A DNA stretch of 64,000 nucleotides from Salegentibacter agarivorans (GTDB taxonomy: Bacteria; Bacteroidota; Bacteroidia; Flavobacteriales; Flavobacteriaceae). Made by a program: the position numbers and the translations under genes. Location of the stretch: NCBI RefSeq assembly GCF_900113135.1, contig NZ_FOOH01000003.1:124001-188000 (forward strand), given 5' to 3'. Below are positions 16,807 to 39,743 of this stretch, in pieces; the stretch's first letter is position 1; each line of letters opens with the position of its first letter. Below the pieces are notes generated by a model. That model saw only the letters and a list, made by a program, of their open reading frames with translations, had not been told where the DNA came from and ran no database searches.

Positions 16807-17090
16807 TGAAAAGTTTCGAAGTATACCGAAACATTAGGAAAAGAGCGATGATCTGGGGATTGCCGGTTTCGCTCTTTGCCCTTATGATGACAGCCGTGGT
16901 AGGATCACTGCTGGTAATCATATTTTCTTTCAGTCTCGGAGCGGTAATTAGCGTGTTTATTTTCAATTGTACGCTGTATATCGGCTTGACAAGGCTAACC
17001 AGTAATCCGCAGGTCTTCCAGTTTTCAAGAGTCTTTCCAGAAACTATTTCTTCTAAACGATTAAGCAACTTTCATTATGAGCAAGATTAA
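16806..17090 (+). CDS. traF: Conjugative transposon protein TraF (DUF4133)
   Basis: 94-residue inner-membrane protein with a short basic N-terminus (EVYRNIRKRAMIWGLP) and two adjacent membrane helices (about 18-60), the layout of VirB3-like DUF4133 proteins. It overlaps traE by one base and traG by 14 bases, so translation of the three is coupled. VirB3-like subunits work with the VirB4-type ATPase encoded next. Confidence 0.88.
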   Translation: MKSFEVYRNIRKRAMIWGLPVSLFALMMTAVVGSLLVIIFSFSLGAVISVFIFNCTLYIGLTRLTSNPQVFQFSRVFPETISSKRLSNFHYEQD

Positions 17091-19479: not shown

Positions 19480-19483
19480 AATC

Positions 19484-20065: not shown

Positions 20066-20067
20066 AG

Positions 20068-20910: not shown

Positions 20911-20979
20911 GAGAAAAATTAATCATCGGCTACCATCATAATTAATTTTGAATTAGTATCACACCAAAAATTAAAAAAA

Positions 20980-22531: not shown

Positions 22532-22536
22532 AAATT

Positions 22537-24190: not shown

Positions 24191-25444
24191 TTAGGATACT
24201 TTGTTGTCTTGTCCTATTTTAGTTGTTTTACTATTAAAGCTTTTATAAAAATAAAGTAATCCAATGGCGGTCAATATAATGATGCCGGCAATAATAAAGG
24301 GAAAATAAAACCCACCTGTAATAAGCCAAGTCCCTATAACCGGACCTAAAATTTGTCCCACACTATTTGCCGATGTTTGGATAGAAATATTGCTGCCCGC
24401 ATTTTCTTTTGAAAGTTGGGAAACAGCTGAAAGTAGGTTTGGGGTCACCATAGCACCTCCTGCGGCGAATATGATGATTAATAAATAGACGGCAAATTCA
24501 TTATTAAAAAATGGGAATGCAATCATTGAAATTCCTGAAATAAACAACCCGGCTGCAATTTGCTGCTTTGCCGTTAATAGTTTTTCCCCATAGGTTGCAA
24601 ATACTGGCTGTAATACGGCCATTACCACTCCACAAAGCATAAAGCCAATGCCTATTTGATTACTAGAAAATAACAACTCATTTTTTCCGTAAATTGAAAA
24701 AACCGTTTCGAAGAGGGTAATTACGAATTGCATTACAAAAGAAAGCAGTAATAGGACAGTAAAGAACCTACTAAAGCTAAAGCTCAATTTTTGTGCTTCT
24801 GAAACAAACCGACTTATAGGTGTTGTGTTCCCAAGCCATTTTATGAGTATGCTCAATATAACAAAACCCAAAAGAGCAACCAGGAGAAAGGGGATTGAAA
24901 AGCGATCCAAATGTAATATTCCCAAGGAATACTTGAAATGTAGATTGGTTTGGGATAGAAGGCTACCTAAAACAGGGCCAAAAATAACCCCTGAACTTAT
25001 CGCTACCCCAGACCAGGCCATAACCTTGGTCCTGTGCTTTATAGAAGTGATATCACTAAGATATGCATTACTAACGGGAATTACAGCTGATGTAAAAATA
25101 CCTCCGAAGATTCTAGCTATATAGAGCATCGTCAATGATGTAGCAAGACCGGTAAGTAATTGCATAATTACAAAGCCGATTAGCCCAACAATGATAATGG
25201 GCTTACGCCCGTATTTATCGGATAACCTCCCCCAAAGTATAACGAAAAGAAGCTGAAAGAAGGGGTAGATACTCGTTAATAAACCAATATGAAAGTTAAT
25301 CGAATCAGTATCTAGGTTATCTCCTAAAGCTAATCTTTCGGTATAGTAAGGAAGGGTTGGCAATAAAATACCATAGCCCAACATCACTACAAATAAACTC
25401 AACAGGATTAAAGATATCCTGTTGAGTTTTTCTTTTTGGTTCAT
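24191..25444 (-). CDS. MFS drug/efflux transporter (DHA1-like)
   Basis: 417-residue major facilitator protein with 12 hydrophobic segments. Motif A is clear (GRLSDKYGRKPII between helices 2 and 3) and a motif-C-like stretch ISSGVIFGPVLGSLL follows in helix 5. The family exports drugs such as tetracyclines by proton antiport; substrate here is unknown. Its start codon directly abuts the stop of the CopB-type ATPase, so the two are translated from one transcript and the pump may be linked with metal stress. Confidence 0.85.
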   Translation of the reverse strand: MNQKEKLNRISLILLSLFVVMLGYGILLPTLPYYTERLALGDNLDTDSINFHIGLLTSIYPFFQLLFVILWGRLSDKYGRKPIIIVGLIGFVIMQLLTGLATSLTMLYIARIFGGIFTSAVIPVSNAYLSDITSIKHRTKVMAWSGVAISSGVIFGPVLGSLLSQTNLHFKYSLGILHLDRFSIPFLLVALLGFVILSILIKWLGNTTPISRFVSEAQKLSFSFSRFFTVLLLLSFVMQFVITLFETVFSIYGKNELLFSSNQIGIGFMLCGVVMAVLQPVFATYGEKLLTAKQQIAAGLFISGISMIAFPFFNNEFAVYLLIIIFAAGGAMVTPNLLSAVSQLSKENAGSNISIQTSANSVGQILGPVIGTWLITGGFYFPFIIAGIIILTAIGLLYFYKSFNSKTTKIGQDNKVS

Positions 25445-27547
25445 TTATTTTTTACCGATTTTTCGCTTCAGTAATTGCGCATTAATAGCCACTATAATCG
25501 TACTTAAACTCATAAATACCGCTCCTACAGCTGGTCCTAAAACAAAGCCTGAAGAATATAATACACCGGCTGCTAAAGGAATAGCCACTACATTATATCC
25601 TGTAGCCCAAATCAAATTCTGAATCATTTTATTGTAGGTGGCTTTTCCAAAGAGAATTAAGTTGGCAATATCCTGTGGGTTACTGTTGACCAGAATGATA
25701 TCTGCTGTTTCGGCGGCAACGTCAGTACCTGAACCAACTGCAATTCCCACATCAGCTTTGGCAAGTGCGGGCGCATCATTTACACCATCACCCGTCATCG
25801 CTACAAAATCGCCTTTGTTCTGTAAATCTTCTACAATTTCAACTTTTTGATGTGGCAAAACTTCGGCGTAGTATCCATCCAAGCCGAGTTTATCGCTAAC
25901 AGCTTTGGCAGTTCTTTCATTATCACCGGTAGCCATTAAAACTTTTATATTATTCTTTTTGAAAATTTTGATGGCATCGGCAGATTCAGGTCTTATTTCA
26001 TCAGCAAGAGCAATGTATCCTGCTAGCTGGCCATCTATTAATACAAATACAACAGTTTCAGCAGCGTCACTATAAGCATCTTCAGGAATAGTGATTTTTT
26101 CATCCCTTAAATAACCAGGGCTGACCACCTTCACTTGTTTACCATCTACATTTGCCTCTACACCTTTTCCTGTAATTGCATTAAAGTTTTCAGGTTTTGG
26201 AATAGTAATGTTATCTTCTTTAACTCTTTTAATAATACCAACTGCAATGGGGTGTTCTGAGCTTTGTTCCAATGCACTTGAAAGTCTTAAAATTTCCTCT
26301 GTTGAATAAGCTTCTTTAACAGATTCGATTCGAGTGACACCAAAATCACCTTTGGTTAGTGTTCCTGTTTTATCAAAAAGCAAAGCTGAAATTTTTCTTG
26401 ACTCTTCAAAAGCAGTTCTATTTCGGATAAGCAATCCATTTTGAGCAGATACTGCCGTAGAAATCGCAACCACAAGGGGAATGGCAAGACCCAATGCGTG
26501 TGGACAAGCAATGACCATAACGGTAACCATTCTTTCTAAAGCATAGACAAATGGAAAGCCTAAAATCAGCCATACCGCCAATGTTCCAAAACCAATAGCC
26601 AAAGCGATATAGGTTAACCATTTTGCAGCCCTGTCTGAAAGATTTTGCATCTTGGATTTGGTTTTTTGCGCTTCTTCGACCATTTTGATGACCTTGTTGA
26701 GATAGCTATCTTTTCCAGTATGCTCAACCTTTACTTTTAAGGTACTGTTACCATTTACCGAACCACCAATAACCTTATCGTTTTCATCTTTTTTTACAGG
26801 TTTGGATTCGCCTGTAAGCATAGATTCGTTCAGGTAACTTGAACCGTCTACTATAATCCCATCAGCAGGAACTTTTTCACCTGGTTTAACCAAAATCACA
26901 TCATCCTTTAGTAAATCTTCAAGAGGGATGTCTTCTATGATGTCGCCTTTTACCCTGTGCGCTTCCGCAGGCATCATACTTACCAGTAACTGTAAAGCTT
27001 TTGACGCACCTAACACACTTTTCATTTCTATCCAATGACCAAGCAACATTATGGCTATAAGTGTTGATAGCTCCCAGAAAAAGTCTTCGCCTCTTAAGCC
27101 AAATACGGTCGCGGTGCTATAAAAATAAGCTACAGAAATTGCCATAGAAATCAAGGTCATCATTCCTGGCGCACCTTTTTTGATTTCAGACCAGAATCCT
27201 TTTAAAAATGGCCAACCACCATAGAAATATACGATTGTGGAAAGTGCAAAAAGGATATATGGATTTCCGGGAAGCAAAAACTCATATCCAAAAAAGTCCT
27301 GAATCATCGGCGAGAAGAACAGTATGGGAATAGTAAGTACAAGGGTTACCCAAAACCGTTTTCTAAAATCGGCAATCATCATTTTATGATGGTCGTGGCC
27401 CATCTCGCCGTGACCGGGATTGTGACCCGAATGGTCCCCACCTTTGTGGTTCATTTTAGAATGGTCTTCTTTTTTGTGTTTCATCTTCGAATGGTCCATT
27501 TTAGAATGGTCCATTTCTTCGTGATTGTGGTGTTCGTGATTTTCCAT
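25445..27547 (-). CDS. copB: CopB-type copper/silver P1B ATPase
   Basis: 700-residue metal-exporting P-type ATPase. The N-terminus (residues 1-56) is His/Met/Asp-rich with repeated DHSKM-like units. The membrane motif is Cys348-Pro349-His350 (IACPHALGL), the CopB-type form, not CPC. The phosphorylation site is Asp392 (DKTGTLTK) with TGES and GDGVNDAPAL present. Full length, no HMA domains. CPH ATPases export Cu2+ or Ag+. It leads into the MFS gene without spacing and follows a 97-codon gene by 18 bases. Confidence 0.93.
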   Translation of the reverse strand: MENHEHHNHEEMDHSKMDHSKMKHKKEDHSKMNHKGGDHSGHNPGHGEMGHDHHKMMIADFRKRFWVTLVLTIPILFFSPMIQDFFGYEFLLPGNPYILFALSTIVYFYGGWPFLKGFWSEIKKGAPGMMTLISMAISVAYFYSTATVFGLRGEDFFWELSTLIAIMLLGHWIEMKSVLGASKALQLLVSMMPAEAHRVKGDIIEDIPLEDLLKDDVILVKPGEKVPADGIIVDGSSYLNESMLTGESKPVKKDENDKVIGGSVNGNSTLKVKVEHTGKDSYLNKVIKMVEEAQKTKSKMQNLSDRAAKWLTYIALAIGFGTLAVWLILGFPFVYALERMVTVMVIACPHALGLAIPLVVAISTAVSAQNGLLIRNRTAFEESRKISALLFDKTGTLTKGDFGVTRIESVKEAYSTEEILRLSSALEQSSEHPIAVGIIKRVKEDNITIPKPENFNAITGKGVEANVDGKQVKVVSPGYLRDEKITIPEDAYSDAAETVVFVLIDGQLAGYIALADEIRPESADAIKIFKKNNIKVLMATGDNERTAKAVSDKLGLDGYYAEVLPHQKVEIVEDLQNKGDFVAMTGDGVNDAPALAKADVGIAVGSGTDVAAETADIILVNSNPQDIANLILFGKATYNKMIQNLIWATGYNVVAIPLAAGVLYSSGFVLGPAVGAVFMSLSTIIVAINAQLLKRKIGKK

Positions 27548-27565: not shown

Positions 27566-27859
27566 TTATCGTAATTTTTTTCTCATAGCTTCCGAAATGT
27601 TTTCGGCATAGACGCCATAGGCATCTACCAAAAGTCCTTTAATCCCATTTTTTGATGAAATAGCATAAAGCACACTATTATCGTCGGTACTGCTCATACC
27701 CTCAAAACGATGCATCTCGTCAACATTAAAATCTTCTGGGTGTATTTCAATTTTTAGTGAGGCACACTCCAAACATTCTGGTTTTAGGTTAAAATCATAT
27801 GTATAGCCATTTCCCTGTAAATCGTTTATGGCTTCAGAAAGTGTATCGTAATTTTTCAT
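27566..27859 (-). CDS. Small conserved flavobacterial protein, not a PRPP synthetase
   Basis: 97 residues (MKNYDTLSEAINDL at the start, then KPECLECASLKIEIHPEDF and HRFEGMSSTDD). From memory, similar small proteins are often labelled phosphoribosylpyrophosphate synthetase in Bacteroidetes annotations. Length and sequence exclude this: there is no PRPP loop. A Cys pair (CLEC) could bind metal. It lies between the copper ATPase gene and a secreted protein gene, on the same strand. Function unknown. Confidence 0.7.
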   Translation of the reverse strand: MKNYDTLSEAINDLQGNGYTYDFNLKPECLECASLKIEIHPEDFNVDEMHRFEGMSSTDDNSVLYAISSKNGIKGLLVDAYGVYAENISEAMRKKLR

Positions 27860-27865
27860 CTGTCT

Positions 27866-28510
27866 TTATTTATAGTTTATTGTAAAATAGCTGTTATCTG
27901 CTTCTGAAAATTTCTGAAAAGTCAATAATCCTTTTTCATTTAATTTTTCAATAACAGTATAATTGAATTGCTTGATGCGAATACCCCAGGCATAGGCCTT
28001 AATATTTATTTTTGATTTAATAGTGTTTTTGCCAGCTTCTAATTTTCGATCGTAAATTTTTATGATGCTTTTTGAACCGAAAAAATTCAACAAGCCCGAG
28101 TCAAAACTCATTTCCAATTCAATATTTTTCAGATTATCCAAATTGTATAGTTCTTTAAATTTCTTTGAAGTGGTGTTGATTTCTGTTTTCTTTGATTTTG
28201 GATTGGAAAACGGGAAAGCCATTACCACTACACTTGCTTCATCAGGCTTGCAACGATAGGTTGTGGTGTATTTATCGGTCAATTTTTTGTCTTTATCAAA
28301 CAATTCCGTAACTACCTCAATTTCATAGAATCCATTTTTCTTTATTGTTTCACTGGCTTTGAAAGTTTGTTTATTTAAAAAAGAACCATTTTCATCAAAG
28401 TTTTCCCGAATAACAACTCTGCCTGAAATCTGCCCAATGAGCATTTCAGTTTGTCCAGTCATTGTGATGCTGAATAAAGTGATTAGTACTATAAAGCCTT
28501 GTTTTCTCAT
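27866..28510 (-). CDS. Secreted protein, DUF3108-like, unassigned
   Basis: 214 residues with a signal peptide (MRKQGFIVLITLFSITMTGQ). The mature part is beta-rich and mentions no catalytic motif I recognise; its end (KINIKAYAWGIRIKQFNYTV, then VIEKLNEKGLLTFQKFSEAD) is compatible with a DUF3108-type lipid-binding fold, but I hold that loosely. The start overlaps the stop of the PRPP synthetase gene by 4 bases, so it is part of the same operon. Confidence 0.5.
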   Translation of the reverse strand: MRKQGFIVLITLFSITMTGQTEMLIGQISGRVVIRENFDENGSFLNKQTFKASETIKKNGFYEIEVVTELFDKDKKLTDKYTTTYRCKPDEASVVVMAFPFSNPKSKKTEINTTSKKFKELYNLDNLKNIELEMSFDSGLLNFFGSKSIIKIYDRKLEAGKNTIKSKINIKAYAWGIRIKQFNYTVIEKLNEKGLLTFQKFSEADNSYFTINYK

Positions 28511-29400
28511 ATATGGTGCATTAATTTTTTTACCTCTTTTGCCATAATATCACTTAAATCTATTCCATTTGAAGAGTGTGGGATGGTATTACAAGTCACT
28601 ATTTTTTCTACTCCGGAATCCAATAAATCTTGATAGGCGTTTCCTGAAAAAACGGCGTGAATGCCTACACAAATAGGTGGTTTCATTCCTGCTTTTTTAA
28701 GATGTTGTACGGTTTCAATCATTGTTCGGGCTGTGGAAATAATATCATCTACCAAAATGGGTGTAGCATCTTTATATATATCCACATCGGGAACAGAGAC
28801 TTCTACATCACGGTCACCGTGACGCACCTTTTGTAATACCGTAAATGGTGCTCCTGCATTTTTGGCGACTTCTGATACCCATTGTTCACTTTCAGAATCA
28901 GGTCCGATAAGTACCGGGTTTTCGATATTTTCTTTAATCCATTCTGAAATTGCGTCGGCAGCTTGAATCACTTTATTTGGAATTTGATACACTTCTCCCA
29001 ACGAACTAATTCTGTGCAAGTGAGGGTCAACTGTGGTAATGCTATCGGCGAAACCAGAAATCAATTTTCCGAAGAAACCGGAAGTCACTCCTTCTCCTTC
29101 ATTAAATACTTTGTCCTGCCGCATATACGCCAAATAGGGTGCTACCAAACAGGTACACATAGCTCCTAATGATTTGGCTGTGTGGCTTAAAAAATATAGT
29201 GACAACAGTTTTTCGTCCGGTTCGTGCAAGGTGCATACCAGTACCACACATTTATCTTTAACATCAGACAATATGCGCGTGTATGATTCCCCGTCAGGGA
29301 ATTTCCTTAATGTGGCTTGACCCACTTCAGCATCCATTTTTGTAGCCATTAGTTCTGTGAGTTCTTCATTTCCGGGAAGACTGAATAATATTGTTTTCAT
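28507..29400 (-). CDS. prs: Ribose-phosphate pyrophosphokinase (archaeal-like type)
   Basis: Makes PRPP from ribose 5-phosphate and ATP. 297 residues with recognisable active-site parts: the flexible-loop YMRQDK (Arg and Gln), VDPHLHR, and the PRPP loop LVDDIISTARTM. The PRPP loop has STAR where many have STGG or STAG. The length and DPHLHR resemble class III archaeal enzymes. It lies 10 bases from the AMP-phosphorylase-type gene, suggesting a link: AMP phosphorylase releases ribose 1,5-bisphosphate, which could be connected to PRPP by this protein. That direction is speculation. Confidence 0.88.
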   Translation of the reverse strand: MKTILFSLPGNEELTELMATKMDAEVGQATLRKFPDGESYTRILSDVKDKCVVLVCTLHEPDEKLLSLYFLSHTAKSLGAMCTCLVAPYLAYMRQDKVFNEGEGVTSGFFGKLISGFADSITTVDPHLHRISSLGEVYQIPNKVIQAADAISEWIKENIENPVLIGPDSESEQWVSEVAKNAGAPFTVLQKVRHGDRDVEVSVPDVDIYKDATPILVDDIISTARTMIETVQHLKKAGMKPPICVGIHAVFSGNAYQDLLDSGVEKIVTCNTIPHSSNGIDLSDIMAKEVKKLMHHI

Positions 29401-29410
29401 AGTATGTTCT

Positions 29411-30913
29411 TTAATTTATAGTTATGATGTCGTTATGGTTGTTTTCATATTCCAAGGCATAATTAAGTTCACCTTTGGATTCAGCATATATGGTATAAAG
29501 CAGTTGGTTCTCTTCGATTTGTTCTCCCAAATGCACATTTAGAAGAATCCCTGCCGATTTAGATTGTGGTGCTCCAGAAAGCTTGGCCAGTTTTGCAATT
29601 TTACGGTTATCAATTCGTTGCAAAACGCCTGACTTTTCAGCTTTAATTTCAATTTTATAAGGTGCTAAAACTGGTTTTGAAAATTGACCTTGCGCCTTAC
29701 AAATGGCTACGAATTTTTCATATGCTTTTCCAGATTTGAGAATTTTATGTGCGGTTTCCTGTCCCTTTCCTTTTTCTACTTTTCCAGAAAGTTCTAATAG
29801 TTCAGTAGCTAAAAGCAATGCTCTTTCTGTTAAGTCTTTAGGTGCATCTTCCTCATTTTTCAAAACTTTTAATATATCTATGGCTTCTAAAGTTGGACCG
29901 ATACCCCTTCCAACAGGCTGCGTGCCATCCGTAACTACAACTTTTACATTCAACCCAACAGCAGTTCCAACGGTTTCCATATGATTTTTTAGTTTTTCTG
30001 CCATTTCGGTACTGCGAACCTTGGCGGTTTCTCCCACGGGAATATCAATGACCACGTGAGTAGAACCAGCTGCTGCCTTTTTAGAGAGTACTGAAGCGAT
30101 GAGCTGACCTTCGCTATCAATATCCAAGGCTTTTTCAATTTTAATGAGCACATCATCGGCAGGACTTAACTGCGCTGTACCGCCCCAAACAAAACATCCG
30201 CCTTCTTTTTCTACTACGGTCTTTATTTCCTCGGAAGAGAGCGTAACATTGGTCAGTACTTCCATTGTATCTGCTGTGCCTGCTGGCGAAGTGATTGCCC
30301 GTGAGGATGTTTTTGGCATAGTAAGCCCATACGCGGCAACAATGGCAACTACCAATGGTGTTGTCCTATTGCCAGGCAATCCGCCAATACAATGTTTGTC
30401 GACCACGATATCCTTGTTCCAGTTCAGTTGCTTTCCGGAAGCAATCATTGCTTTCGTTAGGTCGGATATTTCATCAATATCCATTCGGTCGCCAGCACAG
30501 GCAGTAATAAATGCCGAAAGGTGGATGTTGGAATAATCGCCTTCCACGATATCGGTTATGATGTTGTTATAGGCCTTATAATCCAGTTTTTTGTTATAGA
30601 TTTTTGCCCTGACGTGGCTTAAGGATTCAATAGGCTCTAAATGGGAAACATATAATGTATCGTTTGGGGAAACATTGAGTTTTTTCGCAGCAGCATCTGA
30701 TAGTCCGATTTCATTAGGCAACAGAATATCAGAATTCAGGACATTAAGACTTGCTACGATTGATGTATTTGCATTGGATATTCTTATTCGGGTAAGTGCC
30801 TCAAACCCTTCTGAAATACAGACGTGGCAATCTTCGCGCATATACACTACATTTTCGTTTTGGGTATAGATTCCGAGATGTTTATATTTTAATATGTTTG
30901 AGTGTGTGTCCAT
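29411..30913 (-). CDS. AMP phosphorylase-type nucleoside-phosphorylase family enzyme
   Basis: 500 residues. Compared with bacterial thymidine phosphorylases it has an extra N-terminal domain of about 90 residues, as in archaeal AMP phosphorylases. The phosphate/sugar site reads KHCIGGLPGNRTTP instead of the KHSTGGVGD of thymidine phosphorylase, and ITSPAGTADTMEVL and GGTAQLSPADD follow. AMP phosphorylases convert NMP plus phosphate to base and ribose 1,5-bisphosphate. In archaea the product goes to RuBisCO; none is in this window, whereas a PRPP synthetase is adjacent. Family strongly supported, exact substrate inferred. Confidence 0.85.
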   Translation of the reverse strand: MDTHSNILKYKHLGIYTQNENVVYMREDCHVCISEGFEALTRIRISNANTSIVASLNVLNSDILLPNEIGLSDAAAKKLNVSPNDTLYVSHLEPIESLSHVRAKIYNKKLDYKAYNNIITDIVEGDYSNIHLSAFITACAGDRMDIDEISDLTKAMIASGKQLNWNKDIVVDKHCIGGLPGNRTTPLVVAIVAAYGLTMPKTSSRAITSPAGTADTMEVLTNVTLSSEEIKTVVEKEGGCFVWGGTAQLSPADDVLIKIEKALDIDSEGQLIASVLSKKAAAGSTHVVIDIPVGETAKVRSTEMAEKLKNHMETVGTAVGLNVKVVVTDGTQPVGRGIGPTLEAIDILKVLKNEEDAPKDLTERALLLATELLELSGKVEKGKGQETAHKILKSGKAYEKFVAICKAQGQFSKPVLAPYKIEIKAEKSGVLQRIDNRKIAKLAKLSGAPQSKSAGILLNVHLGEQIEENQLLYTIYAESKGELNYALEYENNHNDIITIN

Positions 30914-30941
30914 ATTTTATTGGTTGTTGTGATTTTTCGAT

Positions 30942-32318
30942 TTATTCTATTTCTTCGATGGTGTATAATTGCGGAATTTCTGCATCCCACCCATAGGTTT
31001 CCTTGATGCCTTTTTGCAATGCTTCTGCACTCTCTTTTTCACCGTGTACAATGAAAATACGTTCGGGTTTGTTTTTTATCTTATCCATCCAGTCCATAAG
31101 TTCTGCGTGGTCTGCGTGTGCCGAAAGCCCTTCAATTTCTGCAACTTCCATATCAAAGGGCACCCATTTTCCATACACTTTAAGTTCCTTATCGCCTTCC
31201 AATAATTTTCTGCCTCGCGTACCTTCAGCTTGATAACCCACAAAAAGCAAGGTGTTGTTGGGGTTTTGTGCCTGTGTTTCAAGGTAGTTTAGCATTCTTC
31301 CGCCTGTGAGCATTCCGCTTCCTGCAATCACGATTTTCGGTTTATTATCTGTTCGTAATTCCATTGTTTCCCGATAACTGCTTACGACCGTAAAGTGCGA
31401 GCACATTTCGTCACATTCGTTATCTTCCAACCTGTGCCAATCTCTTGTGCGATGAAACAATTCTAATACACTTGCTCCCATTGGGCTATCCATTATCATT
31501 TGTATTTTTGGTATTTTCTTCTCTTTCAATAATTTCCAAAAAATCAGCATCATCAATTGGGCACGTTCTACTGAAAAACTTGGAACAAATAGGCTGCCAC
31601 CTCTGTTGATGGTGTCATTGACCAATTTTTCTATCTGTGGAAGTGCTTCTACTTCATCAGGATGAAATCTTCCTCCGTAGGTGGATTCAATAAATAATAC
31701 ATCTGCCTTTTTTGGCTTTAATGGCGGAAACAGTAATAAATCGTTTGTTCTGCCTATATCGCCAGAAAACACAAAACGTTTCCTGTGTACATCCAACTCA
31801 ATGTAAGTTGCTCCCAGAATGTGTCCATTATATTGAAATCGAGCCCTTATGCCATCAAACAATGGAATCCATTGTGATTGCGGAATTCCTTTAAAATGAG
31901 GGATAGTTTTTTCTACATCCTTTAGGTCGTACAATGGTTCAGCAGGATTATGTTTGGAATAGCCTTCTTTATTGGCACGTTCTGCTTCTTGTTCCTGAAT
32001 TTTTGCACTATCATTCAAAATGATTTTTGCAATGTCCAAGGTGGGATTGGTACCATAGATGGGCCCTTTGAAACCTTGCTTTACCAATCTCGGCAGATAA
32101 CCTGTGTGGTCCATATGGCCGTGGGTGAGCAAAACAGCATCAATATCAGCAACATTAACAGGTGGGTACTCCCAGTTTTTAAGGCGTAATTCCTTTAGCC
32201 CTTGAAAAAGTCCGCAGTCTATGAGTATCTTTTTATCTCCTGTGTCCACTAAATATTTTGAGCCGGTTACCGTACCTGCTGCACCTAAAAAGTGAATATT
32301 TATTTTATTGTTATCCAT
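30942..32318 (-). CDS. Beta-CASP metallo-beta-lactamase-fold RNA nuclease
   Basis: 458-residue MBL-fold protein. The zinc motif is His66-x-His68-x-Asp70-His71 (THGHMDHTG), followed by the beta-CASP insertion and its terminal His motifs (SGMLTGGRML, GLSAHADH, and VHGEK). Such enzymes cut or trim RNA. It is 28 bases from the AMP-phosphorylase-type gene, an association I recall from other bacteria. A path from RNA fragments to NMPs to ribose 1,5-bisphosphate would fit. Confidence 0.9.
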   Translation of the reverse strand: MDNNKINIHFLGAAGTVTGSKYLVDTGDKKILIDCGLFQGLKELRLKNWEYPPVNVADIDAVLLTHGHMDHTGYLPRLVKQGFKGPIYGTNPTLDIAKIILNDSAKIQEQEAERANKEGYSKHNPAEPLYDLKDVEKTIPHFKGIPQSQWIPLFDGIRARFQYNGHILGATYIELDVHRKRFVFSGDIGRTNDLLLFPPLKPKKADVLFIESTYGGRFHPDEVEALPQIEKLVNDTINRGGSLFVPSFSVERAQLMMLIFWKLLKEKKIPKIQMIMDSPMGASVLELFHRTRDWHRLEDNECDEMCSHFTVVSSYRETMELRTDNKPKIVIAGSGMLTGGRMLNYLETQAQNPNNTLLFVGYQAEGTRGRKLLEGDKELKVYGKWVPFDMEVAEIEGLSAHADHAELMDWMDKIKNKPERIFIVHGEKESAEALQKGIKETYGWDAEIPQLYTIEEIE

Positions 32319-32333
32319 CTTTATAGTATTTAT

Positions 32334-32588
32334 TTAGAGTCCACCACAGCAGGAAGGTGTATTTCCTTTATCTTGTTTTGATTTGCTCAATTCCACTATT
32401 TCTTTATATAGATTACGAGAATCCTCTTTAATAAAAAGAGCCAATTTCTTTACTGATTTAGGTTCAAAGTGAACCATTTCCAATAATATCTCAAGGGCTT
32501 CTTCAAGTAGTTTTGAGTCATCTTCCAATGCCTGGTAAAATGGTTCTAAATCTATGTTGCCCTGTTTTTGCAATTCTTCAGTTTTCAT
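32334..32588 (-). CDS. Small unassigned protein with C-terminal Cys pair
   Basis: 84 residues, mostly helical and acidic (DLEPFYQALEDDSKLLEEAL), ending in SCCGG. The adjacent CC near the C-terminus may bind a soft metal such as Cu. It lies between the ATP-cone endonuclease and the beta-CASP gene, 15 bases from the latter, on one transcript. Not recognised. Confidence 0.6.
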   Translation of the reverse strand: MKTEELQKQGNIDLEPFYQALEDDSKLLEEALEILLEMVHFEPKSVKKLALFIKEDSRNLYKEIVELSKSKQDKGNTPSCCGGL

Positions 32589-32629
32589 TTGTATTATTTT
32601 TAAAAATTAGTAATTATTCATTATTTGAA

Positions 32630-33472
32630 TTAATGGGATCTACATAATTCTCTTGAATCTTCGAGTATCTTATTTTGCCTTAGCTTACTGATACCCATTT
32701 GTTCCAAAAAGTCTGGATTTTCGTGTAGCTCCTTGCAGAGTATGATGCCTTGATCCAATAATTTTGTTTTTTCAGCTTTGGTAAGTGTTGTTAAAGCGGT
32801 TAAGGGATGTAGCCCCGATTTATCTATTCTGTCCTTGAGACCATTTCCTCTTGGATAATCCCAACTGGTCATAAGCATTCCAACACATTTCCCGTACTGA
32901 ATGGCATCGGTTGTGAAACGCGTATTGGTGTAAACCCCGCCTTTATGAAGTTTAGCCTCGTGACCTTTTTGGTGTTTCCATTGCTTTTCCACGTCCAAAA
33001 ACCGTGAATGGATATATAATGGGATTTTTACATTGCAAAACCTGCCTTGGTCACTATGGTATTTACATTCAATCATATAATGTTTATTTCCTTTTTGCGC
33101 TATCACATCCACTTCGTGCTGAACGCAATTGCCTTGAACTATGACACCAACCTGTGTTGAAAATCCTTCGTGTGCCAATAGTTTGCCTACTAACTTTTCA
33201 AATGGAAAACCGGTTGGACCTAGTTCCATTAAAGCTTTTTTGAGCTTGTACTTTGAGGCACTTACCCTAGATTTTCGTTTTAGCATCTTGAAAGCCAACT
33301 GATAGATTTTTTTGGTTGTCATTCCTTCTTCAATCTGCTCTTGTACTTTCCGGGCTACATCCTGAATAATATCCTCATCTGCCCGTGAACGCCGCAGGGA
33401 GTTGATGAGTTTGTTTACATCAAAGGCTTCGTACTCACCAGAGTATTTTTTTATTAGGACTGGTTTATTCAT
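32630..33472 (-). CDS. ATP-cone plus PD-(D/E)XK (Mrr-like) endonuclease-fold protein
   Basis: 280 residues. Residues 1-95 form an ATP-cone (IKKYSGEYEAFDVNKLINSL, RRSRADEDII), a nucleotide sensor known from ribonucleotide reductase and NrdR. Residues about 100-170 hold a restriction-endonuclease fold with catalytic pattern QHEVDVIAQ and MIECKYH (D...ECK). Combination suggests a nuclease gated by adenine nucleotides. It stands directly next to a universal stress protein gene, a common pairing in stress islands. Target unknown. Confidence 0.8.
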   Translation of the reverse strand: MNKPVLIKKYSGEYEAFDVNKLINSLRRSRADEDIIQDVARKVQEQIEEGMTTKKIYQLAFKMLKRKSRVSASKYKLKKALMELGPTGFPFEKLVGKLLAHEGFSTQVGVIVQGNCVQHEVDVIAQKGNKHYMIECKYHSDQGRFCNVKIPLYIHSRFLDVEKQWKHQKGHEAKLHKGGVYTNTRFTTDAIQYGKCVGMLMTSWDYPRGNGLKDRIDKSGLHPLTALTTLTKAEKTKLLDQGIILCKELHENPDFLEQMGISKLRQNKILEDSRELCRSH

Positions 33473-33474
33473 TG

Positions 33475-34305
33475 TTATACCTTAATGGTCATTACCGGCA
33501 ATTCGGAATGATTGGTTACGCCCTCGGCGATACTTTTGGAGAACAGGCTTAAAAAACCTGTACGGCCACTAGTACACATTGCTATTAAATCGGCATCTTT
33601 ATATTTCAAAAAATTGTTTATACCTGTTTCTACATCAGGTTCATTATATACATTCATTGAAAAGTTATCCAAATCGGGGAATTTCTTCAAGAATTCCTTG
33701 ATGGGGTCCAAACCCTGTTCTATACTGTTAAAATCAGTTTGGGTATTAACCCTCAATAAATGAAGATGTGCACCGCACTTTTCCGCAATAGAAATAACCT
33801 GCTTAAATGCTTCGCTCACATCTTCCAGAAAATCTGAAACAAAAACAATATTATTAAAAGGAAAAGTTACTTTTTCATCCTTAACCACAATTACAGGGAC
33901 ATCGGCTTTTCTTACAATTTTCTCTACATTGCTTCCCAGTAATTCGCGCACTCCACCTCGGGTGCCGCTGCTTCCTGTAACAATAAAGTCGTGGTGAAAA
34001 TGACCGGAGTGTTTAAGTATATTTGCCTGTCCGCCATCAAACTCAAGGAACGTCCTGCATTCAAGCTCTTGTTGTTCTGCTTTTTTTTCCAGTGCTCTCA
34101 AGGAGGCTTTTGCACTTCCTATTTCTTTTACTGTTTCTGGATATCTTTTTTCTTTTTCCTTATCTAGCTCAACCCAGTTTACGGGGGTGTTAATTAAGTG
34201 AAAAAAATGAATTTCTGAATTGTAAAGCTTTGCCATTTCAATTCCGAGTTCCTCTGCTTTCTTGCAGTTTTCTGAAAAGTTTGTAGGTACGAGTATGTTT
34301 TTCAT
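33475..34305 (-). CDS. Universal stress protein with two Usp domains
   Basis: 276 residues composed of two tandem UspA-like domains (about 1-145 and 146-276). The first ends with an ATP-binding signature GSSGTRGGVRELLGSN and the second with a degenerate CTSGRTGFLSLFSKS, so one half probably binds nucleotide. It begins MKNILVPTNFSE, typical for the family. The ATP-cone nuclease gene follows after 2 bases. Likely acts in survival under energy or oxidative stress. Confidence 0.9.
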   Translation of the reverse strand: MKNILVPTNFSENCKKAEELGIEMAKLYNSEIHFFHLINTPVNWVELDKEKEKRYPETVKEIGSAKASLRALEKKAEQQELECRTFLEFDGGQANILKHSGHFHHDFIVTGSSGTRGGVRELLGSNVEKIVRKADVPVIVVKDEKVTFPFNNIVFVSDFLEDVSEAFKQVISIAEKCGAHLHLLRVNTQTDFNSIEQGLDPIKEFLKKFPDLDNFSMNVYNEPDVETGINNFLKYKDADLIAMCTSGRTGFLSLFSKSIAEGVTNHSELPVMTIKV

Positions 34306-34337
34306 GATTTATTGGTTTTAAATTGTTTTCGTTATAA

Positions 34338-35399
34338 TTAAGCTATGGTTATACTATCTTCCAGATATACCTGTTGGACGGAGTGCAGTAACTCAATCCC
34401 TCTAATAAAAGGCTTTTGAAATGCTTTTCGACCCATAATCAATCCAGAGCCGCCAGCTCTTTTATTGATTAATGCTGTTGTTACCGCTTCGGTCAAATCT
34501 GATTCACCTTTAGAGCCACCGCCGGAATTGATCAATCCTATTTTGCCCATATAGCAATTGGCGACTTGTAATCGACAAAGGTCAATGGGATGTTCTGTGG
34601 TAAGGGTTTTATACATTTCATCATCATATTTTCCAAACCCAATTTCCTTAAATCCAAAATTGTTTGTAGGTAATTTTTGTTTGATGATATCTGCCTGTAT
34701 CGTTACGCCGATATGATTAGCTTGTCCGGTAACGTCGGCGGCAGCGTGATAATCTTTCTTTTCGGTTTTAAAATTTTCATTGCGGGTATAGCACCATAAA
34801 ATGGTAGCCATTCCTAAACTATGGGCTTCTTCAAAAGCTTCGGCTATTTCCTTTAGCTGTCTATTACTTTCTTCAGAACCAAAATAAATGGTGGCACCCA
34901 CAGCAACGGCTCCCATATTCCAAGCTGATTTTACTTTTCCGAATAGTGTTTGGTCATATTTGTTTGGGTAGGTAAGCAGTTCATTGTGGTTAATCTTCAC
35001 GATAAACGGAATTTTATGGGCATATTTTCGTGCGTTTAATCCTAAAACCCCAAAGGTGGAAGCCACTCCATTACATCCTGCTTCTATTGCCAATTTTATA
35101 ATATTCTCCGGGTCAAAATAATCCGGGTTTTTATAGAATGAAAAAGCAGCACTGTGCTCAATACCCTGGTCTACGGGAAGGATGCTCAAATAGCCTGTAC
35201 CGCCAAGGTTTCCGTGGTTATACAATTGCGAAAGACTTCGCAGTACCTGTGGATTTCTGTTACTTTGAACAAATACCTTATCTATGTTTGCTTTACTGGG
35301 GGTTTGCAGTTCATCCTTTGTTATTTTTTCACAAACGTGTTCCAAATAGAAGTCTGCCTTTTCTCCTAAAAGTCCTATTATGTTTTTGCTTATTTTCAT
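34338..35399 (-). CDS. fbaB: Class I fructose-bisphosphate aldolase (FbaB/DhnA type)
   Basis: Cleaves fructose 1,6-bisphosphate to two triose phosphates through a Schiff base. 353 residues; segments [14 protein letters not shown] near 75, and [12 protein letters not shown] around 235 (candidate Schiff-base Lys), and [11 protein letters not shown] and [14 protein letters not shown] for phosphate binding. The length matches E. coli FbaB. It is placed between a GAPDH of archaeal type (11 bases away) and a universal stress protein, so glycolytic steps are bundled with stress functions. Confidence 0.9.
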
Positions 35400-35410
35400 C
35401 TCGATAGTGT

Positions 35411-36424
35411 TTAATGGATTCCTAAACTTTCATTTGTTTTGGCGATGGATTTAGCCCCATCTGTTTCAATTCCAGTTAAAGCCCTAATAGCATCAATTGT
35501 TTCCGGGATTACAATAGCTTGGTTATCGACCACGTAGGCATAAAAGAGTTCGTCTCCCTGTACCTTCAGCATATCTTCCCATAGTGCTACTTCGTACATA
35601 TCGCCCCAAGGCCTTCCCATATCCAAGAACATTTCCTTAATGGTATTGTTAGAAACCAGACCTTGGTCATATTGAATCAATTTAATACGGCTGGACGTTT
35701 TGAAAGCATTTAGCACTTCTTGCTTTGTCGCCTGTTTTTTCAATTTCACATTCCAATAGTGCAGATGGCTTAAGGTTTGCGGTACTTTTACTGCTGCGGT
35801 GATGACATCCAGTTCTGGGTCAACACTTTTAGCATCCGGACCTTGATGGCTTGGGATATCTTTTTCGGGAACCATCGTATTCATAATACCACCCAAATGA
35901 CTTTCCCAAGGGTCTGTAGCTCTTCTTAAAAGTGTACCTCTGGCATAATCCAATAAATCGGCTCTTTTTAAAGCGGTCAAGGTTCTTAAAATAGACGTAG
36001 TATTACAGGAAACTACTCTTGTCGCATTCAAGTTTAGAGCTGATTTGTAATTATTTTCTGCACTAAAGGAATGCCCTGTGGTTTCGTGTTTTTCGCCACC
36101 GTGTAGAATAAATTTGATGTTTTGCTCCTTGTAGATAACGACATTCTGAGCGGCAATTTTTTTGGGTGTACAGTCCACAACAAGATCTGATTTCTTTAAA
36201 AGTTCCTGCATATCGCCTTTTACCGAAATCCCTTCAGATTTCATTTTATCAGCAGCATCTTTAGTTGCTGCATAAATGTCGTATTCCTTTCTTACGGCAT
36301 TTTGAATTCGCCAGTCGCTAATGATATCACATACTCCCGAAAGCTTCATATCGTTTTGTAAGTTGATGGCATCTGCCACCCTTTTTCCAATGACTCCGTA
36401 TCCTATAACTGCTATATTTTTCAT
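35411..36424 (-). CDS. Type II (archaeal-type) glyceraldehyde-3-phosphate dehydrogenase
   Basis: Oxidises glyceraldehyde 3-phosphate to 1,3-bisphosphoglycerate with NAD(P). 337 residues; the N-terminal Rossmann motif is [13 protein letters not shown] and the catalytic Cys140 stands in SCNTTSILR, at the position and context of archaeal enzymes and not the SCTTNC of the usual bacterial Gap. HGGEKHE is another type II segment. It directly precedes the aldolase gene. Archaeal-type GAPDH in a flavobacterium is unusual and suggests horizontal transfer of the module. Confidence 0.9.
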
Positions 36425-36443: not shown

Positions 36444-37790
36444 TTATGTTTTATTGTTCGTAGTTTCCATTCCCATTGGCATATTACCTTCATCGTCTGT
36501 GTGTGAAATCATAAAAAGGCGTTCTGCAACAAGTATTAGAACAATCCCAATCGCTGCTACGATAAGCACCAAAGGATCGTTCAGATATTTTATATAAAGA
36601 AAAGCTGCCAATACCGCAATGTCCAATACGATGGCTATTAATGGGATGATAGGCTGAAAAACCACTTTGTTTTTAAGGTGACGGAACAGCCCCCAATGGA
36701 TAGCGATATCCATAATAAGGTAAAAAATAGCCCCAATGGATGCTATCCTTGTCAAATCGAAAAGCACGGTCAGTAAAATGGCGAGGGAAGACGTGAATAT
36801 TAGTGCTGGATTTTTTAAGCTACCAAGTTTGGTTAAAGAAGGCACCTGTTTCATATTGCTGAGCATTGCCAACAAGCGTGAAGAGGAAAAGATACTGGCA
36901 ATGACCCCAGAAACCGTGGCAATAATGGCAATGCCAATGGTAATCCAGGAACCCCATTCCCCAAAAACAGGTTTTGCGGCGGCTGCAAGGGCATAATCTT
37001 TAGCTTCGATTATTTCAGGAATGCTTAAACCTCCCGCAACAGCTAATGCCAAGGCTACATATATCAGTGTGCAGATAAGTATGGAAAACACGATAGACCT
37101 ACCAAGATTTTTATGCGGGTTTTTAATATCGGCCCCTTGGTTCGTGATAGTGGTAAAGCCTTTATAAGCAAGGATAGATAACGCCAAAGCGGCCACAAAT
37201 CCGAAGCCTTGTGGTAATGTCTCAGTATTTTTGGGAATATAGTTTCCCGTAATATCGGCAAAACCTGAAATTGCAAGGCCGGCAATAGCTAAAATTGCTA
37301 TTCCCACTACCTTTATAATAGCGGTAAATGTCGCGGTGGCACCAATAACCTTATTGCCCAGGATGTTCACTATATAAGCAACAACAATTAGCCCAACACC
37401 CAGGGTAGAGGCATAACCTGCATAGGACTCGGGAAATAGTCTCAACGTATATGCTCCAAAAGTACCCGCCACCAGACTTTCGGAAACTACCATTGATACG
37501 TACATCAGCAAAGAATAAAACCCTGTTGTTGTTCCAGGTCCATAGGATTTGTTAAGGAATTTAACCACACCTCCAGACGATGGAAAAGCATTTGAAAACT
37601 TGACATAGGAATATGAGCTAAAACCCACCACAACAGCACCTGCAATAAATGCAATGGGAAATAGATCACCCACCAACTCTGCTATTTGCCCCATAAGGAC
37701 AAATATGCCAGCACCAATCATTACGCCTGTACCAAGAGATATGGAACCTAATAAGGAAAGCTTATTATTTTTATCTGTGGTGTTTTTCAT
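36444..37790 (-). CDS. APC-family amino-acid/polyamine permease, copy 1
   Basis: 448 residues with about 12 membrane helices; the family start MIGAGIFVLMGQ is in helix 1 and LSILAYKGFTTITNQGADIK in helix 6. Substrate is probably an amino acid, but the position in a metal/stress cluster is odd. A closely related second copy is at 57873-59189 in the copper island; the shared stretches include GAGIF, ESLVA-TFG and SIPEIIEAKDY. It lies between NDH-2 and GAPDH genes on one strand. Confidence 0.85.
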   Translation of the reverse strand: MKNTTDKNNKLSLLGSISLGTGVMIGAGIFVLMGQIAELVGDLFPIAFIAGAVVVGFSSYSYVKFSNAFPSSGGVVKFLNKSYGPGTTTGFYSLLMYVSMVVSESLVAGTFGAYTLRLFPESYAGYASTLGVGLIVVAYIVNILGNKVIGATATFTAIIKVVGIAILAIAGLAISGFADITGNYIPKNTETLPQGFGFVAALALSILAYKGFTTITNQGADIKNPHKNLGRSIVFSILICTLIYVALALAVAGGLSIPEIIEAKDYALAAAAKPVFGEWGSWITIGIAIIATVSGVIASIFSSSRLLAMLSNMKQVPSLTKLGSLKNPALIFTSSLAILLTVLFDLTRIASIGAIFYLIMDIAIHWGLFRHLKNKVVFQPIIPLIAIVLDIAVLAAFLYIKYLNDPLVLIVAAIGIVLILVAERLFMISHTDDEGNMPMGMETTNNKT

Positions 37791-37797: not shown

Positions 37798-39153
37798 TTA
37801 TTTTTCCCTGTTTTTAATCGAAGATTTCGGTTTAAAGTTTCTAATAATCAGGCGGTTGCTCTTTTCATAAGTGAAATAGCTAACCGCCCAATTAAAACCA
37901 ACCATCAATCTATTTCTAAATCCACTTATGGACATCAAGTGAACAACGGACCACAGCAACCAGGCGAAATAGCCTGCAAATTTAAATTTGCCCAAATCGG
38001 CAACTGCCTTGCGTTTTCCTACAGTGGCCAAGGAGCCTTTGTCTTTATATTCGAAAGGTTGTGTGGGTTTATTATTTATGAGGTTTAATATAGAATTACC
38101 CAGATATTTTCCTTGTTGAATTGCTGCCTGCGCCACCTGTGGATGCCCTTTGGGTCTTTCTTCAGAAATAAGCGCAGCTATATCGCCTATGGCAAAAAAG
38201 TTTTCGTAACCTTCTACCATTAAAAATGAGCCAGTTTTTATACGGTTGCCCTTGACCACGTGTTTTTCATCAATACCTTTTGGGAATTGTCCTTTTACGC
38301 CAGCCGTCCAGATAAGATTTTTAGCCAAAATGGTCTTACCACTTTTGGTAGTGACTTCGTTGCCGTCATAATTGCTTACAGCTTCATTTAATAATACCTT
38401 TACATTCAAATCCTCTAAATATTTGAGGGTTTTCGATGATGCCTTGTCTGACATTGTGCCTAACAACTCATCAATGGCTTCTATTAGATAAATATTCATA
38501 ATGGAAGAAGGGTACTCTGGGTAATCTTTGGGAAGGATGTATTTGCAAAACTCTGCCAAAGCTCCTGCCATTTCTACGCCTGCTGGACCACCACCTACTA
38601 TTACAAAATTTGTCAGCGCGTCGCGTTCTTTATCATCACAAGTAATAGCTGCCTGTTCCAAATTTTGCAACATCATATGACGGATGTTGAGGGAATCGCG
38701 AATATCCTTCATCCCCAAACTATTTTCGGCCACAGAATCCATCCCAAAGAAATTGGTGGTCGTGCCAGTAGCCAACACTAAATAGTCATAAGAAACACTT
38801 CCCTTATTGGTCAATATAGTATTTGAATCAGGTTGAATTTCCTCAACTTCAGCCAAACGAAAGAAAACATTTTTATAGCCATTGATTTGTTTTCTGAATG
38901 GAAATACAATACTGTCAGGCTCCAGGGCACTCGTTGCCACTTGATATAATAAAGGCTGAAACTGATGGAAGTTATTTTTATCGAGTAAAACCACTTGAAC
39001 TTCTTTGTGTTTCAGTTTCTCAACCAATGCCAAACCTGCAAATCCTCCACCAACGATAACCACACGAGGTAATTTAGTATCGGGAAGACATATCTCATCT
39101 GTTATCTTACAGGTGGATTCCAACGTAATGCTATGTGTTTGCTTTTCTTTCAT
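37798..39153 (-). CDS. ndh: Type II NADH dehydrogenase
   Basis: Oxidises NADH and reduces quinone without pumping protons. 451 residues with the FAD-binding GGGFAGLALVEKL at about 34-46, FQPLLYQVAT, the NADH-binding VIVGGGPAGVEMAGALAEF near 195, and the terminal FAD segment (NFFAIGDIAAL). A C-terminal hydrophobic segment (FAGYFAWLLWSVVHLMSI) anchors it to the membrane. The start overlaps the universal stress gene by 4 bases. Copper damages iron-sulfur clusters, so a cluster-free NADH enzyme in this island would help respiration; this is inference. Confidence 0.92.
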   Translation of the reverse strand: MKEKQTHSITLESTCKITDEICLPDTKLPRVVIVGGGFAGLALVEKLKHKEVQVVLLDKNNFHQFQPLLYQVATSALEPDSIVFPFRKQINGYKNVFFRLAEVEEIQPDSNTILTNKGSVSYDYLVLATGTTTNFFGMDSVAENSLGMKDIRDSLNIRHMMLQNLEQAAITCDDKERDALTNFVIVGGGPAGVEMAGALAEFCKYILPKDYPEYPSSIMNIYLIEAIDELLGTMSDKASSKTLKYLEDLNVKVLLNEAVSNYDGNEVTTKSGKTILAKNLIWTAGVKGQFPKGIDEKHVVKGNRIKTGSFLMVEGYENFFAIGDIAALISEERPKGHPQVAQAAIQQGKYLGNSILNLINNKPTQPFEYKDKGSLATVGKRKAVADLGKFKFAGYFAWLLWSVVHLMSISGFRNRLMVGFNWAVSYFTYEKSNRLIIRNFKPKSSIKNREK

Positions 39154-39611
39154 TTTTTATTTCTATCTCTTGCAATCAGTACTGAACATTTGGCATTTGT
39201 GGTTAAATATTGGGATACTGAGCCCAATACTAAGCGAGAAAAAGCACCGTGACCCTGAGAGCCTACTACAATTAAATCTGCACCCCAATTTTCTGCTTTT
39301 TCATTAATAGTACTTTTGGGCAGTCCGCTAACAACACTTGTGGTTATGGTAAGTGCCTTGTTTTCGGCCTTGATTTTATCGGAAGCTTCTGAAACGATTT
39401 TGTTTCCCAATTTTTGAGCGTTACTTTTAATTTCTTCTATGTAATTTCCTATCTTGCCGCCCATAGTATGCAATCCCAGACCGGTTGTTTTAGGAAGTTC
39501 ATAAACATTTATAATATGAATTTCACTATTTGAGGATAAAGTCATTTTCTTAAGCTCGTTAATGGCTACTTCACTAAAATCTGAACCATCTATGGCCAAT
39601 ACAATTTTCAT
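39150..39611 (-). CDS. Universal stress protein, single domain
   Basis: About 153 residues from the Met beginning MKIVLAIDGSDFSE; an upstream Met adds 14 charged residues and is less likely. The ATP-binding signature VGSQGHGAFSRLVLGSVS near the C-terminus is complete (G-2x-G-9x-GS). Overlaps the NDH-2 start by 4 bases, so the pair is translationally coupled. Typical role is survival during stress or low energy. Confidence 0.9.
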   Translation of the reverse strand: MKIVLAIDGSDFSEVAINELKKMTLSSNSEIHIINVYELPKTTGLGLHTMGGKIGNYIEEIKSNAQKLGNKIVSEASDKIKAENKALTITTSVVSGLPKSTINEKAENWGADLIVVGSQGHGAFSRLVLGSVSQYLTTNAKCSVLIARDRNKK

Positions 39612-39743
39612 TTTTTTCGTCTTTTTAATCTCTGATTTCGGGTTTAATTCCACTAATTCTGTCCGAATTAGATTTACATGTCAAGCCAAAGAATTTAGTA
39701 ATCGAATCATTTTGGATATTTCATTTCCAACCTCTCTTATAAA

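Follow-up and report, generated by a model that had tools for sequence, protein, structure and literature searches.

The stretch of Salegentibacter agarivorans DNA analyzed here (64,000 nt; contig NZ_FOOH01000003.1, positions 124,001 to 188,000; hereafter the window) contains adjacent minus-strand genes encoding an archaeal-type nucleotide phosphorylase and a protein resembling phosphoribosyl pyrophosphate (PRPP) synthetase, the Prs-like enzyme. We propose, with a probability of roughly 0.48, that the two proteins form a nucleotide salvage unit carried on a mobile stress and copper element, in which the Prs-like enzyme would return ribose 1,5-bisphosphate (R15P) to metabolism. A preliminary description of the region had suggested the Prs-like enzyme as an outlet for R15P, and this is our leading interpretation of the pair. 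It is favored by the close pairing of the two genes, their joint absence from otherwise matching islands, a remodeled loop in the Prs-like enzyme, and the fusion of the phosphorylase to PhnN elsewhere; the reaction itself is one that we infer.

Pairing of the phosphorylase and Prs-like genes

The phosphorylase loci compared were the best-scoring 80 of 576 confirmed relatives (70 groups at 90% phosphorylase identity), and the sample leans to the window's own type because it was taken by score. A homologue of the window Prs was present in 70 of the 80 loci, and in 65 it started no more than 100 bp downstream of the phosphorylase, on the same strand; a beta-CASP homologue was present in 46. Unsupervised clustering of open reading frames (ORFs) found Prs in 59 of the 70 locus groups, beta-CASP in 38, any P-type ATPase in 29, and the Mrr/ATP-cone protein in 17; the clusters also held shadow ORFs antisense to the phosphorylase, and only those that could be labeled are cited. 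All 67 members of the Prs cluster carried the motif GPDxESxQW described below. Other genomes show the gene order again, and the clustering of these genes is therefore not due to chance; the outcome that the preliminary description named as a refutation, neighbors that do not co-occur elsewhere, was not what we observed.

The motif was also searched for directly, using a DNA pattern for GPDxESxQW[VA]; since the pattern demands the exact codons of one motif, variants such as ESEPW escape it. Among 289 Alphaproteobacteria, the motif occurred in 14 genomes, all of which were among the 43 phosphorylase-positive genomes (49 matches minus 6 that covered the PhnN part only; hypergeometric P = 3e-13). 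When the centre genome G389, chosen for its phosphorylase, was removed, 13 of 13 motif genomes fell within the 42 positives of 288 (P = 2e-12). A phosphorylase was found within about 1.5 kb, the flank fetched around each motif place, at 24 of 30 places (12/15 in Alphaproteobacteria, 9/11 in Burkholderiales, and 3/4 in Bacteroidota). Three genomes in this count were already known to have a phosphorylase: that of the window (G000) and the centre genomes G389 and G392, which came in through loci L130 and L118; without them, the figure was 21 of 27. Six places had no near phosphorylase. A contig edge cuts L138, L191, and L219 short; L193 is a second, partial copy in G579; at L184, the genome has its phosphorylase on a different contig; and at L215 no such cause was apparent. 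At L138 (G247:C40), the motif-bearing C-terminus of Prs is joined to unrelated sequence at the contig end, as would be expected of a misassembly or a broken copy. Among plasmid records, 115 had the phosphorylase and 99 had this Prs; 25 of the 60 Prs rows listed overlapped a gene annotated as phosphorylase.

The islands of two relatives, G005 and G010, otherwise match that of the window, yet both the phosphorylase and Prs are absent from them. The gap is filled by a 180-amino acid AAA_28 P-loop protein, and a PPK2 gene lies further on. Because both genes are missing together, we consider that they come and go as a unit; the two islands are 93% alike at this point, and the joint absence may be one event. 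The locus L054 carries both PPK2 and the pair. The P-loop genes that replace the pair are located at L212:6966-7508 (AAA_28) and L213:5428-5970.

The Prs-like enzyme and its changed loop

The Prs-like enzyme resembles class III PRPP synthases in its fold, its ATP-binding FPDxE motif, its RQD, DPH, and DD...T motifs, and its KxR loop. It differs from them in having DxES where the diphosphate loop of these enzymes has DxG[GA], and in its close pairing with a phosphorylase. An AlphaFold2 model based on 27 sequences (pLDDT 93.6) matched PRPP synthases over its full length, with 1u9y as the best match in the PDB (TM 0.84/0.91). The window loop reads GPDSESEQW (residues 166-174). In an alignment of the window Prs with 76 homologues, the loop after the metal-binding Asp was GPDxESxQW in 74 of 74 readable sequences (two were gapped and one was masked), although these are not 74 independent cases because many are close kin. 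The remaining sites, F34-P-D-x-E, R94-Q-D, D125-P-H, K191-x-R, and D218-D...T226, were kept, except that R193 is E in the fragment L074 and D218 is A in L101. The genome also encodes a canonical Prs, in which the loop reads SPDMGGSKRA, and the solved archaeal PRPP synthases, which are the nearest solved structures to the window Prs, show DKGA, DRGA, or DDGG at this position in a gap-free alignment. The DxG[GA] loop presumably holds the diphosphate. A kept change in this loop, together with an otherwise intact active site, suggests that the chemistry at ribose C1 may be altered.

A second Prs branch adjoins the same phosphorylase, with ESRQW in Sphingobium and ESEPW in B. septentrionale. At L105:5244-6470, from a Thiobacillus metagenome-assembled genome, what appear to be the first Prs residues continue into an acetate kinase, and the adjacent protein looks by eye like a phosphoketolase; the fusion may be a deletion product. 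The preprint that defines PRPP synthetase classes I-XII (PMC13252144) does not use the term thymidine phosphorylase in its main text; we call the window Prs class-III-like without placing it in that scheme.

Family of the phosphorylase

The preliminary description had called the phosphorylase an AMP-phosphorylase-type enzyme, and the profile searches agree with this. The protein passed the cut-off of the wider family TIGR02645 (ARCH_P_rylase), aligning with positions 1-489 of the 493 in the profile, including the N-terminal domain. It missed those of the thymidine and pyrimidine phosphorylases: TIGR02644 (219.7 bits; cut-off 409.05), NF004490 (205; 269), NF004747 (176.3; 559), and TIGR02643 (147.8; 570.7). 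The model NF003338, which is titled thymidine phosphorylase, was passed (692.8; cut-off 434), but it covers the archaeal-type family. The nearest solved structures were 4ga5/4ga6 and 4ga4; these and the window enzyme share the stretches IGG-PGN, PKTSSRAITS-AGTAD, VWGG, and PADD, at which the three pyrimidine nucleoside phosphorylases compared differ. We take 4ga4-4ga6 to be the TK0352 protein of Thermococcus kodakarensis. The TK0352 protein has been described as a nucleoside 5'-monophosphate (NMP) phosphorylase that uses AMP, CMP, and UMP (PMC9700705). These comparisons support assignment of the enzyme to the archaeal AMP/NMP-phosphorylase type, as judged from profiles and motifs, and not to the thymidine/pyrimidine phosphorylases, and we infer AMP phosphorylase as its activity.

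Among the plasmid matches listed, most bacterial relatives of the archaeal AMP phosphorylase carry an annotation as thymidine phosphorylase family proteins. The uranium-raised thymidine phosphorylase deoA reported in PMC6315756 could not be attributed to the present phosphorylase family and was not used.

Missing R15P sinks and PhnN fusions

The preliminary description had remarked that RuBisCO, the archaeal sink for R15P, is missing, and our searches bear this out for the genome, a 4.3-Mb assembly listed as 100% complete. No match to RuBisCO (PF00016) was obtained at 0.001, where 5 of 14 controls gave one, and none to R15P isomerase (TIGR00511) at 0.001, where 9 of 14 controls did. No PhnN exceeded its cut-off in the genome (best match, 33.9 bits; cut-off, 156).

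In three records, however, PhnN is fused in frame to this same phosphorylase family: Pacificitalea manganoxidans, Variovorax sp. SRS16, and G457 of the Alphaproteobacteria set. The fusion genes are those at L050:9350-11476, L148:7001-9154, and L194:6638-8674 (minus strand). The PhnN part passes the cut-off of 156 in all three (183.9, 179.7, and 192.2 bits). PhnN converts R15P to PRPP in Escherichia coli (PMC9700705). Because the fused domain makes PRPP from R15P, the R15P formed by the phosphorylase in these records is very probably returned to PRPP. By analogy, the fusions support the idea that the Prs-like neighbor found elsewhere may act on R15P. PhnN and the Prs-like enzyme belong to different protein families.

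In all three records, nadC is immediately upstream of the fusion gene, and a transport gene of the TRAP or TTT type is nearby. This arrangement suggests quinolinate use with PRPP recycling, in which quinolinate and PRPP would give nicotinate mononucleotide (NaMN), NaMN and phosphate would give nicotinate and R15P, and R15P and ATP would give PRPP. The order nadC-phnN-bug27 in Variovorax has been noted (PMC11452294); the word phosphorylase is absent from the main text of that paper.

Proposed reactions and alternative explanations

In the proposed salvage unit, the phosphorylase would split AMP or another NMP with phosphate into the base and R15P, as its family suggests. The loop-rebuilt Prs would then return R15P as PRPP or ribose 5-phosphate (R5P), by phosphoryl transfer with an adenine nucleotide. 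R15P isomerase and RuBisCO would not be needed because the Prs-like enzyme takes R15P back into metabolism. The beta-CASP and Mrr/ATP-cone nucleases may perhaps supply monophosphates from nucleic acid. Class I fructose-bisphosphate aldolase (FBA) and type II glyceraldehyde-3-phosphate dehydrogenase (GAPDH II), and elsewhere phosphofructokinase (PFK), a D-lactate-dehydrogenase-like enzyme, PPK2, phosphoketolase, and acetate kinase, could provide accessory ATP routes or spares for copper-poisoned enzymes. The unit would come into play on failure of respiration, whether caused by copper or by lack of oxygen.

Several points weigh against this proposal. For a conversion of AMP to ADP, both steps would probably be uphill, and we know of no precedent for a Prs acting on R15P. 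The phosphorylase fell below the cut-off of the AMP phosphorylase equivalog TIGR03327 (495.4 bits; cut-off 535). Ten of the 80 phosphorylase loci had no Prs match (L118 retains a C-terminal remnant and L105 an apparent N-terminal one), and 29 of the 43 phosphorylase-positive Alphaproteobacteria lacked the exact Prs motif, so that the phosphorylase can work with other partners. A comparison of distance matrices for the phosphorylase, Prs, the metallo-beta-lactamase (MBL) protein, and the copper ATPase CopA gave r = 0.77 for phosphorylase and Prs and 0.82 for phosphorylase and CopA; since the first is no higher than the second, the matrices do not show co-evolution of the pair, and this argument was dropped. 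The preprint on PRPP synthetase classes reports that catalytic residues are retained over the major classes and argues that PRPP synthesis is conserved (PMC13252144).

A different account, which we regard as unlikely but still credible, treats the island as a kit of copper- and stress-tolerant replacements. The Prs would carry out the usual synthesis of PRPP from R5P and ATP, GAPDH II and the class I FBA would back up the housekeeping GAPDH and the metal-dependent aldolase, and the phosphorylase would degrade surplus nucleotides, with no dedicated route for R15P. The kept catalytic residues of the Prs are in line with this account, as is the report that Cu(I) inhibits Staphylococcus aureus Prs in vitro, that extra prs raises copper tolerance, and that GapA is cited as copper-inhibited (PMC10249872). 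GAPDH II was found in 7 of 99 relatives, namely in the island of all five phosphorylase-positive relatives and in 2 of the 94 others (Fisher 3e-7). Replacement leaves unexplained, however, why Prs and the phosphorylase stay together in 46 loci where the stretch fetched contains no close copper ATPase, why the loop is changed in every readable sequence, and why the phosphorylase is fused to PhnN elsewhere; moreover, the genome already encodes a canonical Prs.

We consider it distinctly improbable, though worth retaining, that the Prs-like enzyme is instead an R15P phosphotransferase with a new activity, R15P + AMP <-> R5P + ADP, in which the C1 phosphate is moved onto AMP. The enzyme would run the Prs reaction with a single phosphate, the second being kept out by the rebuilt loop. 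We retained this version because it is the smallest change to the Prs reaction and closes the gap left by the missing sink. If true, the sum would be 2 AMP + phosphate -> ADP + adenine + R5P, giving phosphate-driven regeneration of ADP (and, with adenylate kinase, ATP) without respiration and explaining the absence of an R15P sink. The energetics of such a reaction would be unfavorable except at high AMP and with continued removal of R5P.

The preliminary description had the aldolase and GAPDH feeding trioses forward. A single dedicated energy pathway, running from RNA through AMP, R15P, Prs, and pentose phosphates to the aldolase and GAPDH, would agree with the arrangement of all these genes in one run, and the PFK, D-lactate-dehydrogenase-like enzyme, PPK2, phosphoketolase, and AckA of other copies fit an ATP-yielding theme. 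As an obligate continuation, this part of the description was not supported: FBA was present near the phosphorylase in only 7 of 80 loci and GAPDH II in only 10, and G005 and G010, the two phosphorylase-negative relatives with GAPDH II, keep the FBA-GAPDH genes of the island without the pair. FBA of this type was found in 19 of 99 relatives, and the window's genome has a second copy. Given the reported inhibition of Prs and GAPDH by copper, a role as spare copies accounts for the aldolase and GAPDH no less well than a linear pathway. On this distribution, FBA and GAPDH II are separable accessories that go with the island and not with the pair, and we think that there is little chance of a linear route.

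Finally, an anti-phage or mobile-element defense unit that depletes nucleotides, to which the mobile setting, the Mrr-type and beta-CASP nucleases, and the AlbA_2 gene might point, is very improbable given the poor fit of the metabolic neighbors and low-oxygen regulation and a PADLOC search of seven proteins that returned one weak match (the Mrr protein to CARF_PDDEXK, 23.5 bits) and none for the pair.

Copper and low oxygen as settings of the pair

The proposed R15P-recycling pair was found in more than one setting. In 28 of the 80 phosphorylase loci, the stretch fetched contained an ATPase with 33% or more identity to the copper ATPase of the window, and 46 loci had Prs and no such ATPase in that stretch; copper is therefore not the general cause. 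Metal stress, the occasion of use that the preliminary description envisaged, is only one setting, and in Bradyrhizobium the inducer is low oxygen.

In Bradyrhizobium diazoefficiens, the trio annotated as MBL hydrolase, Prs, and phosphorylase was raised in microoxia, with protein log2 values of 2.9, 4.4, and 2.1 and transcript changes of 15.4-, 7.7-, and 5.1-fold (PMC6515984). The trio appears there in the relaxed-threshold list, with no soybean bacteroid entry and with FixK2 marked '-'. The genes bll3117-bll3116-bll3115 are predicted to make up one operon, for which a FixK2-type box is given at -74; in a strain without fixK2, bll3117 falls 6.6-fold and bll3115 30.6-fold; a phosphoketolase-acetate kinase operon is listed beside them (PMC9104804). 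Our comparison with this operon was by annotation (phosphorylase, Prs, and MBL hydrolase), not by sequence. The same gene order occurs on pBs1S1a of B. septentrionale, where Prs has ESEPW and not ESxQW, and where the 10.9-kb stretch contained no copper ATPase.

The company of the pair varies elsewhere. On a Criblamydia plasmid, it is found with phosphoketolase, acetate kinase, a glucan phosphorylase, and a P-type ATPase, and in Legionella anisa with an F-type ATPase and a metal efflux system. Copper genes accompany it in Ruegeria and Methylophaga, whereas Arenibacter certesii (L054) has it together with PFK, PPK2, and a D-lactate-dehydrogenase-like enzyme. A theme shared by these settings could be that ATP is made or saved without respiration.

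The gene run and its mobile setting

The preliminary description had placed the genes at 28507-36424 in one minus-strand run with stress proteins, and we found all of those named to be intact ORFs with clear family matches, separated by gaps all shorter than 45 bp (Table 1). The run extends further, over about 24.2-40.6 kb, from the AlbA_2/Usp end (40562) to the MFS transporter (24191). Its 5' end adds an APC permease, an NDH-2-like oxidoreductase, a universal stress protein (Usp), and the AlbA_2 gene, and its 3' end adds two small ORFs, the copper-type P-type ATPase, and the MFS transporter. Conjugation genes adjoin the copper ATPase cargo, as in a conjugative element with copper cargo.

Table 1. 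Genes of the minus-strand run and the adjoining conjugation genes (window coordinates)
Feature	Position	Strand	Match
Conjugation genes (including TraG-type ATPase, TraM, DUF4138)	17077..23397	+	Pfam
MFS transporter, last gene of the run	24191..25444	-	Pfam MFS_1, 184.8 bits
Copper-type P-type ATPase	25445..27547	-	Pfam E1-E2_ATPase and Hydrolase; TIGR01511, 614.6 bits (cut-off 397)
97-aa ORF, no family, conserved in the island	27566..27859	-	No Pfam match at 0.001; homologue in 10/80 loci
214-aa ORF, no family	27866..28510	-	No Pfam/NCBIfam match at 0.001; homologue in 15/80 loci
Prs-like enzyme, class-III-like (core pair)	28507..29400	-	NF005537, 396 bits (cut-off 322)
AMP/NMP-phosphorylase-type enzyme (core pair)	29411..30913	-	TIGR02645, 606 bits (cut-off 434.6)
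Beta-CASP nuclease, metallo-beta-lactamase fold	30942..32318	-	Pfam Lactamase_B; Beta-Casp, 114 bits; RMMBL, 73 bits
84-aa ORF, no family, stays with the island	32334..32588	-	No Pfam match over cut-off; homologue in 10/80 loci
ATP-cone and Mrr-type nuclease	32630..33472	-	Pfam Mrr_cat, 27.7 bits; ATP-cone, 25.8 bits (exactly at cut-off)
Universal stress protein, tandem Usp (2 domains)	33475..34305	-	Pfam Usp, 2 stretches
Class I FBA, DeoC/LacD family	34338..35399	-	NF006707, 635 bits (cut-off 327)
Type II (archaeal-type) GAPDH	35411..36424	-	NF003251, 446 bits (cut-off 185); TIGR01546, 324 bits (cut-off 233)
APC-family permease	36444..37790	-	Pfam AA_permease_2, 103 bits
NDH-2-like NADH dehydrogenase	37798..39153	-	Pfam Pyr_redox_2, 153 bits; NDH2_C, 45 bits
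Universal stress protein	39150..39653	-	Pfam Usp, 90.6 bits
AlbA_2/Schlafen-domain protein, conserved in the island	39744..40562	-	Pfam SLFN_AlbA_2, 73 bits; kept in G005, G006, G010, G014

Of 99 relatives, a number that counts the window's own genome, only 5 have a true phosphorylase. From 24140 on, the window is 92-98% identical to two genomes of the same genus (up to window position 55754 in the stretch fetched from G006, and up to 51502 in G014). The cassette part at 24.2-39.6 kb matches genomes of other genera (G026 and G044) in blocks of 72-96% identity, and Mesonia mobilis (L064) is 93% identical across 25230-40905. This distribution and pattern of identity fit a mobile cassette.

Relative to G044, the window is 95% identical at 35094-39611 and only 84-88% identical at 24247-35074, a mosaic that suggests recombination between islands. 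Between Usp and FBA (window 34305-34338), L054, L057, L062, G014, G026, and G044 hold extra genes, a transporter and PFK with a D-lactate-dehydrogenase-like or short-chain dehydrogenase/reductase gene, which are not in the window. The beta-CASP protein missed the equivalog cut-offs for aCPSF1 (306.8; cut-off 580.2) and type VII Cas14 (389.4; 800) and is assigned to beta-CASP by Pfam only; identity as type VII Cas14 was rejected, being far under the cut-off, and the match was taken as general beta-CASP kinship. A scan of the window gave 50 promoter-like sites, with 57.5 expected from shuffles and hence no excess, and 18 terminator-like sites, with 14.5 expected; neither was used. One strong hairpin was located at 25395-25429, at the start of the MFS gene.

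Comparison with known systems and significance

The window phosphorylase is like TK0352 of T. kodakarensis in its nearest structures and shared motif stretches. T. kodakarensis sends R15P to R15P isomerase and RuBisCO (PMC9700705), whereas neither was found in the window's genome and the neighbor is a Prs-like enzyme. The haloarchaeal non-carboxylating pentose bisphosphate pathway likewise has an R15P node without RuBisCO, but it needs R15P isomerase, ribulose 1,5-bisphosphate phosphatase, and a FucA-type ribulose 1-phosphate aldolase (PMC9700705); we obtained no isomerase match, and the aldolase of the window is of the class I FBA type. The literature searched, which left most subscription journals out of scope, yielded no paper that treats the phosphorylase and Prs together as one system.

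With its mobile Prs-like partner and the conserved, changed loop of that partner, the window offers a single protein pair on which the fate of R15P in bacteria lacking RuBisCO or R15P isomerase can be assayed. The pair is seen in several other bacterial groups, and both genes are common on plasmids. The proposed salvage unit could explain the presence of nucleotide and sugar-phosphate enzymes in some copper and low-oxygen gene clusters.

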